This document shows, piece by piece, positions 45,301-63,330 of a stretch of 64,000 bases of DNA. Numbering within the stretch: position 1 is the first letter of the stretch; each line of letters starts with the position of its first letter. Source of the stretch: Branchiostoma floridae (Eukaryota; Chordata; Leptocardii; Amphioxiformes; Branchiostomatidae); NCBI RefSeq assembly GCF_000003815.2, contig NC_049979.1, positions 19,585,686 through 19,649,685 of the forward strand, in the 5' to 3' direction. The notes beneath the pieces were generated by a model. The model searched no databases. It saw only the letters and a program-made list of their open reading frames with translations, and had not been told where the DNA came from. A program made the translations under genes and the position numbers.

Positions 45301-48300
45301 TTTGACAATATTGAAATGTATTCAAACTTGTCCTGTCCTTGGTGCTGAACAACATTCATACAATGACTATGCCAAATAAAGTTCACATTGATTGTTTTTA
45401 ATAATATGACATTTTCACTGACACTGCCTCACCTTTTGACACATGAATCTTGATACTTTTATTCTACTGACATAAAATAACTCTGCTGTACACATACTGA
45501 AAAATCTTATATTCACAATATACAAGACTTTATTGCTGGCACAATTGTCATAGATTCACAAGATATGTTTGAAAGACCTTGTCCCATTGGCTGGTGTTGA
45601 TGTCATGCAGCCAGCTCAAGTGCCCATGGGAAGCCAGGAACTGGGCCAGCTCGGCATTCTGGGAGGACGGCTGGGACAACAGCTTCCCTCGCTTTCCTAA
45701 TAAGGCAATTCAAACTAGTACAGTTACAAAATTCTAATAACAAGAAAAAAATATTCCAATAGGGTGAGTTGAACAAATAGACGAATGTTATGAAATGTGT
45801 ATTTTGGTGGATTAGGTGATCTGGCAGTATGTACACACACTACCATATTGTAAATGTAAGGATACTTCAGCTCACCTGTATCCATGTACCACTTGAACAG
45901 GAAGTCAGAGAAACCCTGAAAATGTCGGAAAACACAACATTTTGAGAAATATGTATCCATAGCCTAATAGCACTGCTGTCATTTAACAAATCTAAAAAAA
46001 AAAAATCAGAAAAATTGTTTAACATTGGTTGACAAATCCATCTTTTATACAGGATACACCAACTAAAAACGAATGTTTTGCTGAGATGTGTTTAAGTAGT
46101 TACTGCAAATGCAGAAATGTTCACAGTGGATTAATGTTCGCAGTTTTCGCGGTGACCACTGCACCGCGACTGCAGTCTATGGTGTTATCGCAAACTTAAA
46201 TCCACCGCGAAAAGTCATTTTACCCGCTCACCTCACCGGTCCCATAGCCTCACCGGCCGCGAAATTAAATCCCCTGCGAACTTAAATGCATTTACAGTAT
46301 TTGCTACAAATGAACAAAAACAAGTGTAAAACAACAGCTCACCTTGTCAGCAAACTGCACCATGTACCTCTCCAGCCTCTCCTGGTTGTCAGTGTCCTCA
46401 CACAGCTGGACCAGCACACTGAAGTCACAGTACTTCTCAGCCAGGGAGGCTGCCCGCTCGTGCTGTCCTGCCTCAACTATGCAGCATACAAACATCGTGA
46501 AGCAGTTCCAAAAACATGATTGCTCAGGCACTTAACAGTACATCTCTAACTAAATCCATCTCAACTTATGAAATTCAACAGATAGGCCAAAATGACAAGG
46601 TATCTAAATTTTGAACATTTTAATAGCTCTCGTTACAAGTTGAACTTGTATAACACCTATGCTCACTTAAACCACCATGACATCAAAACCATCTTGTTAT
46701 CAAGTGCTTTTCTGTACTTCATATATATTTTGGCTTAACCTTCTCCAAGTTGAATTGTACTGTTACTTTGTAATCAGTTGGAAATGCATCAGAGAGAGTT
46801 GATCTGCTGGAACCTATCCTAAAGGATGATAAAGGAAATACGAGGGGCGTGCAATAAGTAATGGTCCTGACCCACTTCCAGTTGTCTGATCTAAATGAAA
46901 TTTTGTATGTGTAATAATTCATATCTCTATGGGTTATGTTGCAAAAGACAGCTCTGAACTAATTGTGGTTTCTGATTTACTGGTGTTTGAACTTAGTCAG
47001 GTGCGAAATGGACCAGGTGTGAAATGGAACCAGTTGAGTGTCGCGCAGTGATCCGGTTTTTGTATTTGAAAGGACGCACACCAAAGAAGACTTTTGATGA
47101 AATAAATGAAACTTATGGTGATGATGCCCCATCATATGACCTTGTAAAACGCTGGCATCCTGAATTCAAACGTGGCTGGAAGTCTGTGGAAACAGCTCCC
47201 AGACCTAGTCGTCCCTCTTGTGCCATTGATGAGGCATCAGTTGGAGGACCAACCTGGGGTGTCCTACAAAATCGGTGTCCAGAGCTGCATCAAACGATGG
47301 GAGAAATGCATAACTCTGGGTGATTCCTATGAAGAGAAAGACTAATAACTGTGCCAAGTTTCATTAATCTCCTGCTATGGGAAATGGGTCAGGACCATTA
47401 CTAATTGCACGCCCCTCGTATTTTACAACTATTGGTGGTATACAAATGCACATGTATGATACCCTAATCAGAGTAAAACTATAATAACTATAAATGCTGG
47501 TTCACATTAGCAGTGATAGTACTACTAGACAATGAACATCACAGCAGCGATTCCCCTACGTACCCAGAGGTCTGATGTAAGCTGCCCTGTCTCCCTCGTA
47601 CTTCTCCTTGACATCCATGTAGTGCTGGTCCCCCTCCCCGTCCCCCAGGGACTCTAACTGACAGATGTACCCGTCCAACAACAGGTCTGTCAGCTCCATC
47701 AGCTGCTGGAAGAACGTTCCCCTGGTCTGCACGTCTGTAGCCTCCAGCAAGCCCTGTTCTACTGTCACCTCATGCTAGAACATTAAAAACATACACCATG
47801 TCCAAGCACTGTACACATCCAGCTGTTTTCATATCTAGCACTCTTTGGCGCTATTACAAGTGACTTTACTGGTAACACACCAAACATTGTTGTTTGATGT
47901 TAATGCAAAATCTGAAATTGTGGCAGATGGCAAAAGGTCAAGACGAGTCTGTCTTCCTTGTGATGTGTACTTTATACATTTTTACAGTCAATATGAATGA
48001 CTCATACTGTTGAACATGAGTTTACAAAGCATTATAGCCAATATTAGCCTAGTGGGAAACAGTTGCTGAAAGGAGACCTTTTTGTTGAAAAGTCTTCCAC
48101 ATTGTACCTTTTCATATGATTCTAGTATACAAGATCTGAGGCAAGATGTCACATACAGGCATCAAAGAAATCAAAGATAAACTTCAACTCATGCAAACAT
48201 ACAAATAGATACATCCTTTCCATCTGAAAACTATATTCCAAGAAACAAGCTTGTGCTACCAAGCGATTGTACTATACTAATGGTTTATTTACCTGTTTCT

Positions 48301-51300
48301 TGATGAGGGATCGCAGTCCTCTAGAGCCTGAAGAGGCTGAAGATTTTAGAAATATTACCAAAGGTTTAACAAAGACAATACATTGCAAATAAAATGTCAC
48401 CAACTAAAACTAACAACTGGACCATATATGTTATAACATGAAATGTATAACGTAAAAGATCAGATTATTAGAATTGAATGACAGATGAGTATTCTAAAAG
48501 CAGCTGTAGATATAATTTGAATATTCACCTGTCCATGGAATGTACTCTGGTTCCCTGACACCTGTGTCCACATGGGCCTGGTAAACAAGGTTTTTGGACT
48601 GACGCAGTTTCCTGGCTGCCTGTAACATGGCCTGGAAACAGACAAGAATATCAGTGTACATGTACATATAGTTAACATTTACATTTACATACTAAGTTAG
48701 TACTAACTAGATGCCTACTGCCTATATATGTATGATATACAATGTAGCTCTCTTAAATCATTACTTTTCTCTAATGTGAAAGATGAAAACCTAAAGCTTT
48801 GAAAATAGAAATAAATAGACTAAGAATCAAGCACATGAGAATATGCATAGCTTGTACTAGAGCCTCTATAGTCAGGGTTTGAAATTCATTTTTGGTTATA
48901 GGTGTACTGGGGTGCAACTAGCCTAAAAATATCAGTTTGGCGTTCTGTTCAAACTGTCTTTACCTGCATGATAGTGTTGACATTGGCCATAAGATTGACC
49001 ATATCTCTTGTGGACATGTCTCCAGCCATGGCATCTTCCTCATACTCAACAAGTGCCTCCAGAATGTCCTGGATCCGAGACACCTGTGACAAAAATAGAC
49101 AACAGGCCAAAAACTATGATCATGATACCTAAAGACCACTTCCAATACACAAAATTGCATTTAGTGAAAAAACTGAGGACCGACAGAGCAACAGAACAAT
49201 TTTCATTAATCTGCCAAGTATGGGGCTCAAGATAGATCAATGCTTAGGCCACACCAATTTAATTTCTTGGTTCACGGATTTTTCATAAAAAATATGGAGC
49301 GAGAGGGCGAAATAAAAATAAAAATTGTAAAATGGTTGGGGTAAAGGTCACGGCTAATCCAAAAGATAAAGAAAAAAGTTTTCAGCTTGAAAAAAGTGTA
49401 ACAGCACCTGTACCCACACTTTAAGGAGCTTATAATATAAAGGCCAATTTGCTACACCAGAAAGTTGGTGAATGGTTTCATTAATGGTGAAAATTTGCTG
49501 AGTAGTAATTTTTATTTTTATTTTTTTTTCCCAAAAAATAGGAGCGAGCGAATCCGTGAACCAAGAAATTAAATTGGTGTGGCCTTACTTCTCTGTAGAA
49601 GACATCCTGTGGGGTGAGTCCAGAAGGTGGAACAGCTTGTCCCCTCTGTTGTAAGACTCTCTTGATGGCAGCGTCCACCAGACTCGGATACCTAAGGATC
49701 AAGGATGGTATTCAATTTGCAGCCAACAGGATGTACATTTACGCATATAGCAAGATGATGTAAGACATTTGACCATCAAGCCAGTTGGCAATACATTTGT
49801 ACATGTAACAACTATCAACATACAGCAATACCAAAAAGCATGTCTATGGAGAATACAACACTGTACATTTGTGCATACTATACCAAGGTCCAGTCACATG
49901 GCAGAATTCCTCAAAGAAAATTATAAGGACAATTTCAATGTCTGAATCCAGTATTCGTATTGTTGACAGCACAAATACAAAGCATGTGCAAATTATTCTG
50001 CAGATGCTGTGCAGTATGCCTGTGTATGGGATACTGTAAAAAGGCAGAACCATTTGGAGTGATATTTCCCGGATTCTACAAAAGAATGCCTTACTGGGAG
50101 TGTTGGTTCCTGAGGGTGATGGCAGCCTGGAGTTTCTCAGCGTGTTCACACAGGAGGAGACGTGTAGGCATGAAGGTGTCCCTCACCATCACGGAGGTTA
50201 ACTAGGAGAGCACACAAGATTATGTTCTCTTCTGAAGTTATTTCTCAGGTAACTTTGAAATACAGTTTTTCTTACTAAGAAATATTCCAACATCTTTATT
50301 TTACTTACTGCATATTGACTCTCATTCACTGGCATCAGTAAATTTCTTAGAAAAAAACTGGAGTATTTTGTGTGTACCCTGTCCCAGATGCCCACAGTGT
50401 TGAGGAAGGTGACAAGGTAGTCATGGGCCTTCTGTTTGTCTTCCAGCTGGTGCAGCAGGATCAGAGAGCTGGAGGAGGAGCCAGCATCTGTGCAAACATA
50501 TGTACAACTGTCAATCACACTAGCTGGGGGAGGAGCCATCATCTGTACAAAGATATGAACAACTGTCAATCACACAGACTGGAGGAGCCAGCATCTGTAC
50601 AAACATATGAACAACTGTCAATCAAACTAGCTGGAGGAGGAGCCATCATCTGTACAAAGTTATGAACAACTGTCAATCACACAGTCTGGAGGAGGAGCCA
50701 GCATCTGTGCAAATGTATGAACAACTGTCAATCACACAAGCTGGAGGAGGAGCCAGCATCTGTACAAACACATGAACAACTGTCAATCACACTAGCTGGG
50801 GGAGGAGCCAGCATCTGTACAAAGATATGAACTGTCAATGACACAAACTGGAGGAGGAGCCAATATCTATACAAACATATAACAGGCTCCGCTTTAAGTT
50901 CGGAATTCCACTTTTCCCATTTTGACAAGTGCTAATATTTTCAGTATAAAAGCACCTGGTCCAAAAGTCTTTACATATGATTGACAAGTATGATGAACAG
51001 TTGTAAAATATGACAATAACTTTCATGAATATTCATTTTGAAAATTTTCTTCCTGCAGAACTTTTAAACATCTATCAATCACACAAGGTACAAATACCTG
51101 TCAATCAAACTAGCTTGAGGAGCTACATGTGTAGCAACAATACAGCGGTACAATGACCATCAAGTTAAATACTCCTTTGGCTGTTCAAAAAAGAATTACA
51201 GGCAAATCCAACACCGTAAAATATAAGCTTAATGATCAAAGTGTCAAACAAAATCATTACACATGTTGCGCTCCAAGATTCTCCATTATGGATAGTAAAT

Positions 51301-60157: not shown

Positions 60158-63100
60158 ATGAACTCCCATGATATCGGTAAGTACTGTTTTGAAGTTATAA
60201 CATAAGAGCTTCAGCATCAACCTTATAAGTGTTTGGCAAGGTTGTGTGTGATTCTGAACTGATGATATGAAGAAATTTGAAGTTCTCTCCCAGAGGCCAG
60301 ACCATGTGTCCGACAAATAGAATTTCATGTACGCTGTGGCTATTGACACACTCAGTGTGCCAATAGCCAAACAGGCTATTGACACACCGAGATGCCAGCC
60401 AGCCAATCAGAGCTTGTAACATGACTTTCCGACGCAAGTATACAAAAGGAACGGGTTCCGCACTGGTGTTCCAGTGCTAAATCAATGGGTCGAATCGGCC
60501 TCAGCACTGGTTTTCCAGTGCTGAAGAAACGTCAGCACTGGTTTTCCATTGCTGAACGGCCTTGTTCGAGTGCTGAAGCTCCCTCAGCACTGGAATTCCA
60601 GTGCTGAACCCAATGCGAGCACTGGATTTCCAGTGCTGAACTTCTCTGAGCACTGGTTTTCCAGTGCTGAACTGCCGTCAGCACTCGGGTACCAGTGCTG
60701 AACTCGCGGCAGAGGTCATTCAGCACTGGTTACCCAGTGCTGAAACCGCCGTCAGCACTGGAACCGAGTGCTGATATACAAAAGTAACGGGTTCAGCACT
60801 GGATTTACCAGTGCTCGGGAACTTTTCAGCACTGGAAGACCAGTGCTGTAAAAACTTCAGCTCTGGGCTTCCAGTGCTGACGTTTATAAAGCACTGGAAC
60901 GTTCCAGTGCTGAACGTAATATTCGTGTACTAGTAGCATGCGTCCGTACGGCTGTCAGTTATTTCCTTTAGACTTAGGTATATCTATGCGTGTTATTTAA
61001 TCTCCAAGCAGATCTTGCGTGGCACTAGCTTTTACTAGCTTTAGACTAGAGTAGACACTTGTGATATTGTTAATTGTGTATGCAGTTAATGGCACTCAAG
61101 TTTCTTTTCTTTTGGTCAATTGATACAAAAATTTTAAATGAACAAATCACATATTCTATACTTGTGGCAAAGTAGTGTCTTTTTAGTCAGAGGTAGACAA
61201 CTAACAGTTGGTCTATCTGTGTGGTAAAAAGATCGCTTGTTTTTTTTTTTTTTACAAAGAATAGGTAGTTACAGGTGGACGACACATTCTGCTGGGTGTG
61301 CCAATAGCCTCGCTCATCATTAATGTATGTTGTGAAACCATCACCACTGTCACTATCATTCTATCTTTCTGTGTAGACACCAAGTACTAATGTGCTAACA
61401 CCTCTCTTTGGACAATGATTGTAGCACCGCTCTAGGTGATAAATTTCTAAATTCTGACTCATGCTTAGAGGTCAGACTGACACAAACAAAAACACTGTTA
61501 TTCATAATCATACAGTTTACTCTGGCCTGTTACTTTTAGTATAGAATTCCATTGCTTCAAGCAGGTGTTGGGTGGGACCAAACTGTTGTGTATTCCTTTC
61601 AAAATATTTATCCTCCCCAATCTCTGCTTTGAGATAGCATACATGCCCCTCACCTATACATGTTTGATGGGAGCGGGGGTATGAGCCTGTGCGCATCAGG
61701 TCATCCCTACTATTCTCAATATAAAAGTGTGTTGGATTATTTTCGTACAGGTTTGACATTATGAGACTGGCTTCCCCGTACACAGAACCAAATGATCACT
61801 TCTGACATGATGTTTCCTTTTTATTTTTAACTACCAGACCCAGATGATTATGATTGGCAGCCGCCATCAGAGGCTGACTTGAAGGTGATCGAGGCACGTC
61901 GTGAACGTAACGACCAGATCAGTAAGCGGATGGGAGACTATCTCCTGAAGGGGTGGAAGATGCTGGGTACAAACTGTGAGGAGTGTGGGGTGAGTATTCT
62001 GATGTCCTAATGCTACATAATGGTTCAATACATCAGGGGATTTTCTCAAGAGGAAATGAAAGGGGGTGCTGCACACTCATGCTCTAACTACACTACCACC
62101 TTACCCAGAGCAGATTCTCTGAAAAGCTAGTAGGTCACATGTGGCCATATGTGTCCTCAATTATGACCGCTCTTATTGTAAGAAGCCATACAAATTACAA
62201 TACTGGGGAAGGGGCCAAATTTACACCATCCCCCCACTCCCTTGCACTTCCATACAATTCTTTTTTTACAAAAAAAACCTCTAATATACTACCTGGGCAT
62301 AATGTCAGTGATTAATCAAATTTCTTCCTGAATAGTTGAGTTTTGTTTCATAATTACAATCACAGATACCAATGTACATAACTCATCTGTATATTTACCA
62401 TATCTGTTCCCTGTAGTGTATTCTGCTGAGGGACAAGCAGGGAGCTGACTACTGTGTTGCCTGTAATGAACTTGAATCTGATCATGACAAGGATAATCCA
62501 GGTGAGGAGATAATGGCCTTTGTGCTGTACTGTCTGTGTTTGTTTATTTTTGTAGTCACATAGTCTGTGCTAGTGTTAAATTGACATTGTATTGGAGTTT
62601 AGCTTGTCTTAGACTTATAATTTTGCAATTCTCTGGCATTTTGTCAAGTCTCTTGACTTGACAAATTGCCAGAGAAAGGCAAAAGGTCATATGCAAATTT
62701 TGAGTCTCAAACTAAAATATTCAGATTTCCAAAAACTTTGCCCTGAACCTACAGTATTGAATGTATGTTATGCATACATTACTTTTCTGGCAATGCCAGC
62801 ATTTGTAGAGTGGAAAAAAGAGACAAAGGAAAGGGCTTCAGACTTCTCAAGAAGTTTTTATCATGATTTTAAGCAAACTTCTTGGAATTTTTCTTGATCC
62901 AGCGGTGAATGAGGAGGCAGCTAGAGGACTGCATCGAGAGGCCCAGTATGCCACAGCAGCCAAGGACCTGGCTTCCTCTTCACAAGAACATGTCATCAAC
63001 CATGTGGCCTCACCGCCAAGAAACGTCACCCAGCAGGAAGATACCGTGCCAAGGAACAGACTCGTTTCGGCAAATCCAATAGCCGTTGTGTCCAGCGCGC

Positions 63101-63330
63101 CGCAACAGGTCAGCTCGGCCAGTCAGAGCCATGCATACTCACCGACAGAGGCTGCTGGCGAATGGGGAGAGCTGACAGAAGTGGCAGGCATGTCGGTAGA
63201 GGCCGTTCAGAAGAAACTGTCATGGGCAACTGAAGAGTTAGGAAAGACCTCCTCAATAGAGAATAGCATTCAACTCTGCATATTGATAAAGGCTTGTGCA
63301 GAAGCATTGATAGCATTGAAAAAGATGTAG
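60158..63330 (+). CDS. ZNRD2: ZNRD2 (SSSCA1/p27) zinc-ribbon protein
   Basis: Exons 60158-60176, 61838-61989, 62417-62501, 62903-63330; 684 nt, 227 aa. The start has a strong context (CCACCATGA), and the first exon encodes only six complete codons. The N-terminal part reads D-W-Q-P-P-S-E-A-D, A-R-R-E-R-N-D-Q-I-S, M-G-D-Y-L-L-K-G. A zinc ribbon follows (C53xxC56...C70xxC73: CEEC and CVAC), then D-H-D-K-D-N-P-A, all as in vertebrate ZNRD2 (known as SSSCA1/p27, an autoantigen; about 199 aa in human). The C-terminal helix pair (L-S-W-A-T-E-E-L-G, S-I-Q-L-C-I-L-I-K-A-C-A-E-A-L) is also conserved. A Ser/Pro-rich linker makes it somewhat longer. Molecular role poorly defined. AATAAA signals lie at 63609 and 63825. 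Confidence 0.95.
60338..60368. repeat. 31-bp hairpin of GGCTATTG termini
   Basis: GGCTATTGACACAC and its near-complement GTGTGCCAATAGCC meet around CTCA. The same motif forms the ends of the segment that starts five bases later. Confidence 0.7.
60373..61310. mobile_element. Inverted-repeat-bounded segment carrying the palindrome array
   Basis: The left end AGGCTATTGACACACCGAG and the complement of the right end AGGCTATTGGCACACCCAG match at 17 of 19 bases. About 940 bp with no coding capacity; its left half is the palindrome array. The target duplication was not identifiable, so transposon status is inference. Lies in ZNRD2 intron 1. Confidence 0.5.
60459..60914. repeat. Array of 13 palindromes, period about 32 bp
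   Basis: Consensus TCAGCACTGG, 2-6 free bases, CCAGTGCTGA. Units start near 60459, 60501, 60532, 60584, 60617, 60648, 60678, 60720, 60752, 60793, 60826, 60857 and 60889, with a lone half-site at 60568. Spacers of 7-10 bp differ in sequence. Most start-to-start distances are 30-33 bp. The flank TATACAAAAG-AACGGGTTC occurs twice (60439 and 60775), so the array was partly duplicated as a block. No coding capacity; in ZNRD2 intron 1, 280-740 bp after the start codon. Confidence 0.9.
62630..62675. repeat. Inverted repeat in ZNRD2 intron 3
   Basis: Arms TCTCTGGCATTTTGTCAAGT and the complement of the right arm match at 19 of 20 bases around a loop of about 6 bases. Confidence 0.75.

Follow-up and report, generated by a model that had tools for sequence, protein, structure and literature searches.

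A palindrome array in a presumed ZNRD2 intron of Branchiostoma floridae is one end of a non-autonomous DNA transposon

Results

The palindrome array in the window

The DNA analysed here, referred to as the window, is a stretch of 64,000 nucleotides of the genome of Branchiostoma floridae. A putative start of ZNRD2 is present as an ATG at 60159 followed by gtaagt, and the open reading frame at 62809-63330 presumably corresponds to the C terminus of ZNRD2; with these landmarks, the location of a palindrome array in between fits intron 1 of ZNRD2. The array occupies 60457-60913 of the forward strand, not 60459-60914 as given in a preliminary description of the locus; between the putative first splice donor and its start lie about 280 bp. 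The thirteen near-perfect, periodically arranged palindromes reported there are indeed present: the array consists of 13 two-armed palindromes of the form TCAGCACTGG-N3-6-CCAGTGCTGA, with mismatches, of which the first lies at 60457-60480 and the last at 60888-60913. To these has to be added one half-site at 60567-60576 (forward strand), which has a right arm and no left arm, is in helical phase with the other sites and recurs, with 0 or 1 mismatch in the right arm, at the same place in seven aligned relatives. With at most one mismatch, the arm TCAGCACTGG matches the window 31 times, 24 of them in the array, compared to 4.4 (sd 2.2) matches in shuffled sequences; none of 100 shuffles reached 31.

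Counting the half-site, the centre-to-centre steps are 44, 31, 21, 31, 32, 31, 31, 42, 31.5, 42, 32.5, 31 and 32 bp. Most of them fall into the range of 30-33 bp that had been described, but four (44, 21, 42 and 42) do not; every step, however, is at most 2 bp away from a multiple of 10.5. Likewise, 9 of the 13 spacers (7-8 bp) agree with the 7-10 bp described before, but the others have 11, 18, 18 and 20 bp. Elsewhere in the window, a tandem repeat with a 55-bp/107-bp unit is found at 50460-50884, and the open reading frame at 46997-47323 may, by its appearance, encode the N-terminal portion of a mariner transposase.

The window copy is inserted into another repeat

The array is part of an 860-bp segment (60434-61293, forward strand) that comprises one end, termed end A, and the adjoining interior of a non-autonomous DNA transposon copy without its end B. 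In blastn, this segment is 97% identical to positions 1787-2647 of a related locus (L046) and 95% identical to another (L045). Positions 60434-60456 (forward strand) comprise the terminal inverted repeat (TIR) of end A together with the bases that precede the first palindrome (GCAAGTATACAAAAGGAACGGGT), with one mismatch to the TIR of the family. A second terminal TIR was not found in the whole window with up to four mismatches; the only matches are that at 60434 and an internal copy of the TIR sequence within the array (TATACAAAAGTAACGGGT, 60775-60792, forward strand).

To the left, 60331-60433 (forward strand, left limit approximate) are part of an unrelated high-copy element that ends with GGCTATTGACACAC and was the insertion target of the transposon. 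This left part of about 103 bases is present at at least 40 places at 98-100% identity, that in the window included, and the host element was therefore probably active recently. Six copies were fetched from the 39 other full-length places. In all six, the match to the window stops at 60431-60433 and other sequence follows, where the window has GCAAGTATAC; this sets the left border of the transposon at 60434. None of the six carries the array, and the idea that the array is a part of the neighbouring repeat was dropped. The host element has a length of about 1.1-1.2 kb, with copies of GGCTATTGACACAC at its ends in both orientations (L122-L125). Its inverted end motif is found at 61296-61309 (reverse strand), near the broken right side of the transposon. 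Thus, the window copy is inserted at 60434 into another repeat, and the right part of the transposon, along with the bulk of the host element, was presumably lost in a later deletion.

A family with two different ends and 9-bp target site duplications

In the assembly of 513,431,437 bases, the exact palindrome with a gap of 1-8 nt occurs 824 times and the reversed control not at all. That the palindrome would be found at other loci, as the preliminary description had proposed, was thus borne out, but the different spacers expected there were not: copies of the same subfamily share most of their spacers, since they are copies of one element, and the loop order of the window recurs at several places among the matches listed. 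In the thirteen regions fetched, the palindromes often form a pair of arrays with 0.3-1.2 kb between them, and both ends are present in six of the regions. The two-ended copies are bounded by short TIRs of about 20 bp (GCAARTATACAAAAGTAACGG or relatives). The arrays begin 23 and 30 bp from the element tips and are made of palindromes of about 24 bp, of which array A has 12-14 and array B 4-9. The array in the window is one end, end A, of this interspersed family of non-autonomous transposons of the cut-and-paste type, and of the explanations offered before, that of a sub-terminal transposon array was right.

The element ends open with GCAA and a TAC.AAA-type motif, and two subfamilies are distinguished. 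In subfamily 1, end A carries GCAAGTATACAAAAGTAACGG and end B GCAAATATACAAAAGTAACGG, with a variant at the B end of L046; the TIRs of subfamily 2 are GCAAGTCTACGAAA(GCTTC or ACCTC) and GCAAAACTACGAAA(GCTTC or ACCTC). Genome-wide, 140 matches to the TIRs of subfamily 1 and 164 to those of subfamily 2 were found, and none to the controls. Among the 100 of 140 and 100 of 164 ends listed, 34 and 33 inverted pairs were formed, which leaves 32 and 34 ends unpaired. Each pair among the matches listed is made up of one A and one B end (34/34 and 33/33), and 32 of the 33 pairs of subfamily 2 have the identical TIR variant at both ends. TIR-bounded copies have lengths of 290-11,770 bp; the paired copies measure 290-2374 bp, with four of more than 4 kb set apart. 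Long copies of subfamily 2 were covered as far as contig C12, and others may be missed. On a small contig (C323:160827-160903), an A and a B end are merely 77 bp apart, and four B ends of subfamily 1 are on the same contig; either a minimal element or a clustering of ends at this place might account for this.

An exact 9-bp target site duplication (TSD) flanks 24 of the 31 insertions read in total: 4 of the 6 fetched copies, 15 of 20 further pairs of subfamily 1, which were taken in listing order from the 29 pairs not fetched before, and all 5 long copies, although that of L074 lies within a TCTG-rich stretch and is weak evidence. In mispaired flanks, used as control, an exact 9-bp TSD was seen in 0 of 380 cases. 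Two of the five misses among the 20 pairs have one mismatch and three have a partial repeat of 6-10 bases with an offset of 3-4 bases; the two misses among the fetched copies are L037, in which the repeat is offset, and L044, which lacks one. No open reading frame of more than 138 amino acids was found in five copies examined. Apart from the four long ones, the paired copies are short and, where examined, non-coding, with TIRs and TSDs, as expected for MITEs, and paired inverted TIRs together with a TSD of fixed length are the features of class II elements of the TIR order. Satellite DNA, in which one monomer is repeated head to tail over long stretches, looks different, since the copies are interspersed and bounded by TIRs and TSDs. 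A viral source was considered and rejected: a scan of IMG/VR for AGCACTGGN{3,5}CCAGTGCT gave 29 loci with one exact site each, no array and at most 3 arms (with up to one mismatch) per 200 bp.

Spacing follows helical turns

Fifteen arrays from nine loci were used for the analysis of spacing. The intervals between centres are 31-32.5, 41-44, 50-52, 63-63.5 and 72-74 bp, values that approximate 3-7 helical turns at 10.4-10.5 bp per turn. In all 15 arrays the best-fit phase coherence is 0.91-1.00 with fitted periods of 10.32-10.50 (search range 10-11 bp), periods being fitted array by array, which flatters arrays with few sites. With the period fixed at 10.5 bp, the B ends of L037 and L038 have values of 0.53 and 0.78 and the other 13 arrays at least 0.86. 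For the window alone, redrawing the four irregular intervals reached the observed coherence in 0.5% of simulations. Ten irregular intervals, hand-picked as independent (44, 52, 42, 63, 42, 41, 74, 51.5, 52 and 50), gave a mean cosine V of 0.80 with a Monte Carlo p of about 5e-5. Homologous repeats were omitted from this test, as were 72, a variant of 74, and the regular step of 31 bp, because unit duplication alone can yield the latter. The distance from the tip of end A to the centre of the first palindrome is 3.29 turns, so the tip is out of phase with the array, which argues against a perfectly rigid phasing.

Arms are constrained between subfamilies and probably decay in single copies

The alignment was small, with eight A ends, of which five belong to subfamily 1 and the other three to subfamily 2; two of them, L037 and L041, are nearly identical. 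Between the subfamilies, the arms differ at 8.3% of positions (330/4000), compared to 30% in loops (237/790), 29% in spacers (564/1925) and 36% in the terminal stretch with the TIR (120/330). Since these percentages are summed over pairs of copies that are related, it is their ratio that counts, and a p-value would not be meaningful. Among copies of subfamily 1, arms (2.7%), loops (3.7%), spacers (5.8%) and the terminal stretch (1.8%) show little contrast. Six copies of this subfamily were scored for private changes after gapped columns had been dropped: 17 fell in 262 arm columns and 24 in 175 other columns (Fisher p 0.02). Ten of the 24 non-arm changes belong to L038, which is more distant than the other copies; when it is left out, 16 arm changes face 14 others. 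Inside single copies the contrast between arms and spacers is thus weak at most, and the window copy has none: its 3 private changes in the array are all in arms. The statement that palindromes are conserved and spacers are not therefore applies between subfamilies and hardly within single insertions. We read this as arms being kept by the lineage that multiplies, with single insertions, including that in the window, probably decaying freely.

Nothing in these data suggests a role of the array in ZNRD2, given the weak contrast in single copies and its lack in the window copy. Co-option as a regulatory element of ZNRD2/NUP133 would be in line with the short distance to the putative first splice donor, but the copy in the window is truncated, lies nested within another repeat and has changed in its arms, and we regard such a function as extremely improbable.

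Neighbouring units with identical spacers are seen in L038, at end A (agaaacg twice, acttttc twice) and at end B (ggacgtt three times, gccgccg twice). These repeats show that arrays enlarge through duplication of the 31-bp unit; the spacers are thus not acquired as in CRISPR. The likeness to CRISPR that had been pointed out is superficial, with spacers that are common to copies at other loci and duplicated along with their units. Could the array then be a minisatellite that grew by chance inside a transposon, its arms alike from recent copying of units and without a function in binding? The duplicated whole units in L038 and the weak contrast inside single copies are what such growth would give. 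On the other hand, corresponding units of the two subfamilies share their arms (8% different) and not their spacers or loops (29-30%), the helical phase is kept by irregular spacings, and arrays are present at both ends; chance growth is, in our view, quite unlikely.

Pairing, polarity and the internal TIR copy

A hairpin or cruciform, formed in the ZNRD2 pre-mRNA or in single-stranded DNA of the transposon, was considered as the reason for the palindromes. The RNA of the array does fold far better than shuffled sequences (-283 versus -156 kcal/mol, z -21), but a very stable fold is expected of any palindrome array, as are the 11 weak matches to microRNA families in Rfam, all far under the gathering scores, of hairpins. 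Not a single compensatory change was found in 201 palindromes from 21 arrays, with one cell altered on both sides, and in many units of subfamily 2 a C/C mismatch at arm position 9 (CACTCG versus CCAGTG) breaks the pair. Hairpins in the ZNRD2 pre-mRNA, one of the initial proposals, thus find no support beyond the stable folding, and an action of the palindromes as hairpins or cruciforms is very improbable.

Read from A to B, the loops are rich in T, with 204 T versus 93 A and 94 versus 58 in array A, and 108 versus 43 and 57 versus 4 in array B. The variant at position 9 is in the left arm in all 22 cases in B arrays and in 29 of 47 in A arrays. By both features, the two arrays do not resemble mirror images of each other, and only the TIR of about 20 bp is clearly inverted. 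Foldback-type elements are characterised by long, internally repetitive inverted ends; here the ends are repetitive and self-complementary, with inversion restricted to the TIR and an equal polarity of the loops in both arrays.

The internal TIR copy sits between the ninth and tenth full palindromes of array A. Across eight copies the terminal TIR has three variants, and the variable part of the internal copy changes along with it: GTAACGGG in both, ACCTCGCC in both, and GCTTCGCC in the internal with GCTTCACC in the terminal copy. The adjoining TATACAAAA does not follow and remains as in subfamily 1. This tracking suggests that one protein reads the internal and the terminal copies, or that gene conversion keeps them alike. 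It also bears on the idea that the palindromes are bound by a host factor and make up an enhancer or an array for chromatin recruitment, which serves expression or silencing of the transposon and not its transposition. Arrays of this kind are exemplified by the hr elements of baculoviruses; an enhancer array would also have dimeric, phased sites, and the five copies checked are non-coding. However, arrays at both ends, 23 and 30 bp from the tips, and an internal TIR copy that changes in step with the ends point to the transposition machinery, and we consider a host factor unlikely.

Search for a transposase

The MULE domain PF10551 is encoded at 27 places of the genome (L047-L073); PF03108 gave 0 matches, but the control was equally silent. 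No palindrome array is present within about 1.5 kb of any of the 27 places. When 45 open pieces around the MULE matches were compared to 15 family loci by tblastn, the best E value was 0.046; against L116 and L117 it was 0.009, and against L121 0.059. One of the MULE places, L051, has an open frame of 590 amino acids with a FLYWCH zinc finger and a MULE domain, and a near-copy (L052); the MULE frame of L047/L048 has ZSWIM/FAR1-like matches. A tandem array of about 122 bp near another MULE locus (L063 2745-3306, L064 1-796) recalls the minisatellites of Rehavkus.

In none of the copies examined was a transposase found, including the five longest TIR-bounded ones (4.2, 4.2, 7.8, 9.9 and 11.8 kb, with 9.7 kb of the last read). 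Three of these five, L075, L116 and L121, owe their length to reverse transcriptase genes, identified by Pfam in L075 and by the appearance of the open reading frames in L116 and L121. None of 10 open reading frames of L074 was above the Pfam cut-off. The longest copy (L117 with L118/L119, C5:19152173-19163942, 11.77 kb) has the ends of the family and a perfect 9-bp duplication. It was read as 9,501 bases of L117 and two ends of 101 bases; one of 9 open reading frames gave a Myb/SANT-like match in Pfam, and comparison with a copy of about 90% identity revealed no open reading frame with a clear excess of silent changes. A search with 3,001 bases of it found a second copy at 100% on the same contig and two others at 90-91%. 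Possibly, this copy carries captured host DNA.

Discussion

What looked like a CRISPR array in an animal intron is explained as the remnant of a transposon. A description of this element was not found in the literature searched, Repbase itself lying outside that search; subterminal repeat arrays as such are already known from foldback-like and Mutator-like elements.

The array is a transposon end, and it is likely that its arms are half-sites for dimers of the transposase or of a partner encoded by the element, lined up on one face of the helix. Each 10-bp arm would be a half-site for a dimeric DNA-binding domain, most likely that of the transposase, and arrays of such sites would raise the specificity of binding or give avidity. 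With numerous dimers aligned along the same side of the DNA, ends A and B could then be brought together, and the tip of the TIR would be the site where the element is cut. Spacers and loops would be free to drift, and we propose that the similarity of the arms is maintained because a copy is multiplied only as long as its sites retain binding. Phased sites for a dimeric DNA-binding protein, as had been suggested early on, are thus the best mechanism within the transposon reading, judged from phase and constraint, although binding of the conserved, phased half-sites by a transposase is what we infer from sequence.

Going further, it is tempting to speculate that the transposition protein forms a long one-sided row of dimers on about 20 palindromic sites per element, with array A extending over up to about 47 turns on one face, and that the two unequal ends and the internal end copy tie the recognition of ends to this scaffold. 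We put this forward tentatively, as a possibility that may well turn out otherwise. If true, selection would act on helical phase and not on spacer length and would be readable from sequence alone, and multi-site assembly of transposases in foldback-type elements would become directly testable. On the question of whether subterminal repeat arrays bind transposase, the family offers natural evidence in three respects: between subfamilies the arms are under constraint and the spacers are not, irregular spacings track helical turns, and the internal end tracks the real ends.

From its target duplication the family is Mutator-like, and membership in Mutator is likely: a TSD of 9 bp is within, and often seen in, the range of 8-11 bp of this superfamily, although other superfamilies have similar TSDs and the TSD alone leaves them as candidates. 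In the accessible part of a survey of MULEs, no MULE transposase was found in B. floridae (PMC6446971); contrary to that, the 27 MULE-domain places and the L051 protein show that such transposases are present. Rehavkus, which is described there, resembles this family in its 9-bp TSD and in containing a minisatellite, matched here by internal repeats of about 144 bp in L045 and L046. Rehavkus is reported in that part from arthropods and annelids alone (PMC6446971).

Tetris of Drosophila virilis is likewise non-autonomous and foldback-like with internal tandem repeats and has a TSD of 8-10 bp, but its repeats measure about 220 bp, according to the excerpt of the report at hand (PMC4079207). Galileo of Drosophila, a member of the P superfamily, also has internally repetitive ends. 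Several transposase (THAP) sites were demonstrated in these long ends, which makes them a precedent for transposase sites in arrays; however, Galileo belongs to another superfamily, its ends exceed 1 kb, and palindromic arrays are not described in the sections available (PMC3688188). Binding of the transposase to the subterminal repeats of Foldback and Phantom was untested as of the same source, as far as those sections go (PMC3688188).

The 9-bp duplication, the short tip and the repeated motifs fit Mutator-like elements of the foldback type, with Tm1 and Muta1 as examples. Tm1, a Mutator/Foldback element of root-knot nematodes, has a 9-bp TSD, composite ends and a variable number of short repeats, mostly of 14 bp in 1-9 units, and its unequal end motifs A1/A2 have their parallel in the unequal ends of the lancelet family; the part of the report consulted neither presents its Motif C as a palindrome nor mentions helical phasing (PMC3169594). 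The closest element described, judging from the accessible text of its report, is Muta1, a Mutator-like 'type2 Foldback TE' of Aedes aegypti (PMC5225508). It resembles the lancelet family in its TSD of 8-9 bp and in a short terminal motif behind which numerous short subterminal repeats are separated by short spacers; in Muta1 these are 9 copies of a 12-bp repeat with spacers of 3-4 bp and a period of about 15-16 bp. It also has more than 300 putative non-autonomous derivatives, most of them with a common TIR (PMC5225508). Unlike the family described here, Muta1 has TIRs of 145 bp and a known transposase, and that text does not call the 12-bp repeats palindromes, although its 10-bp terminal motif is an imperfect palindrome (PMC5225508). 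The lancelet family, in contrast, has palindromes of about 24 bp spaced at three to seven helical turns, unequal A and B ends, and arrays of the same polarity on one strand.
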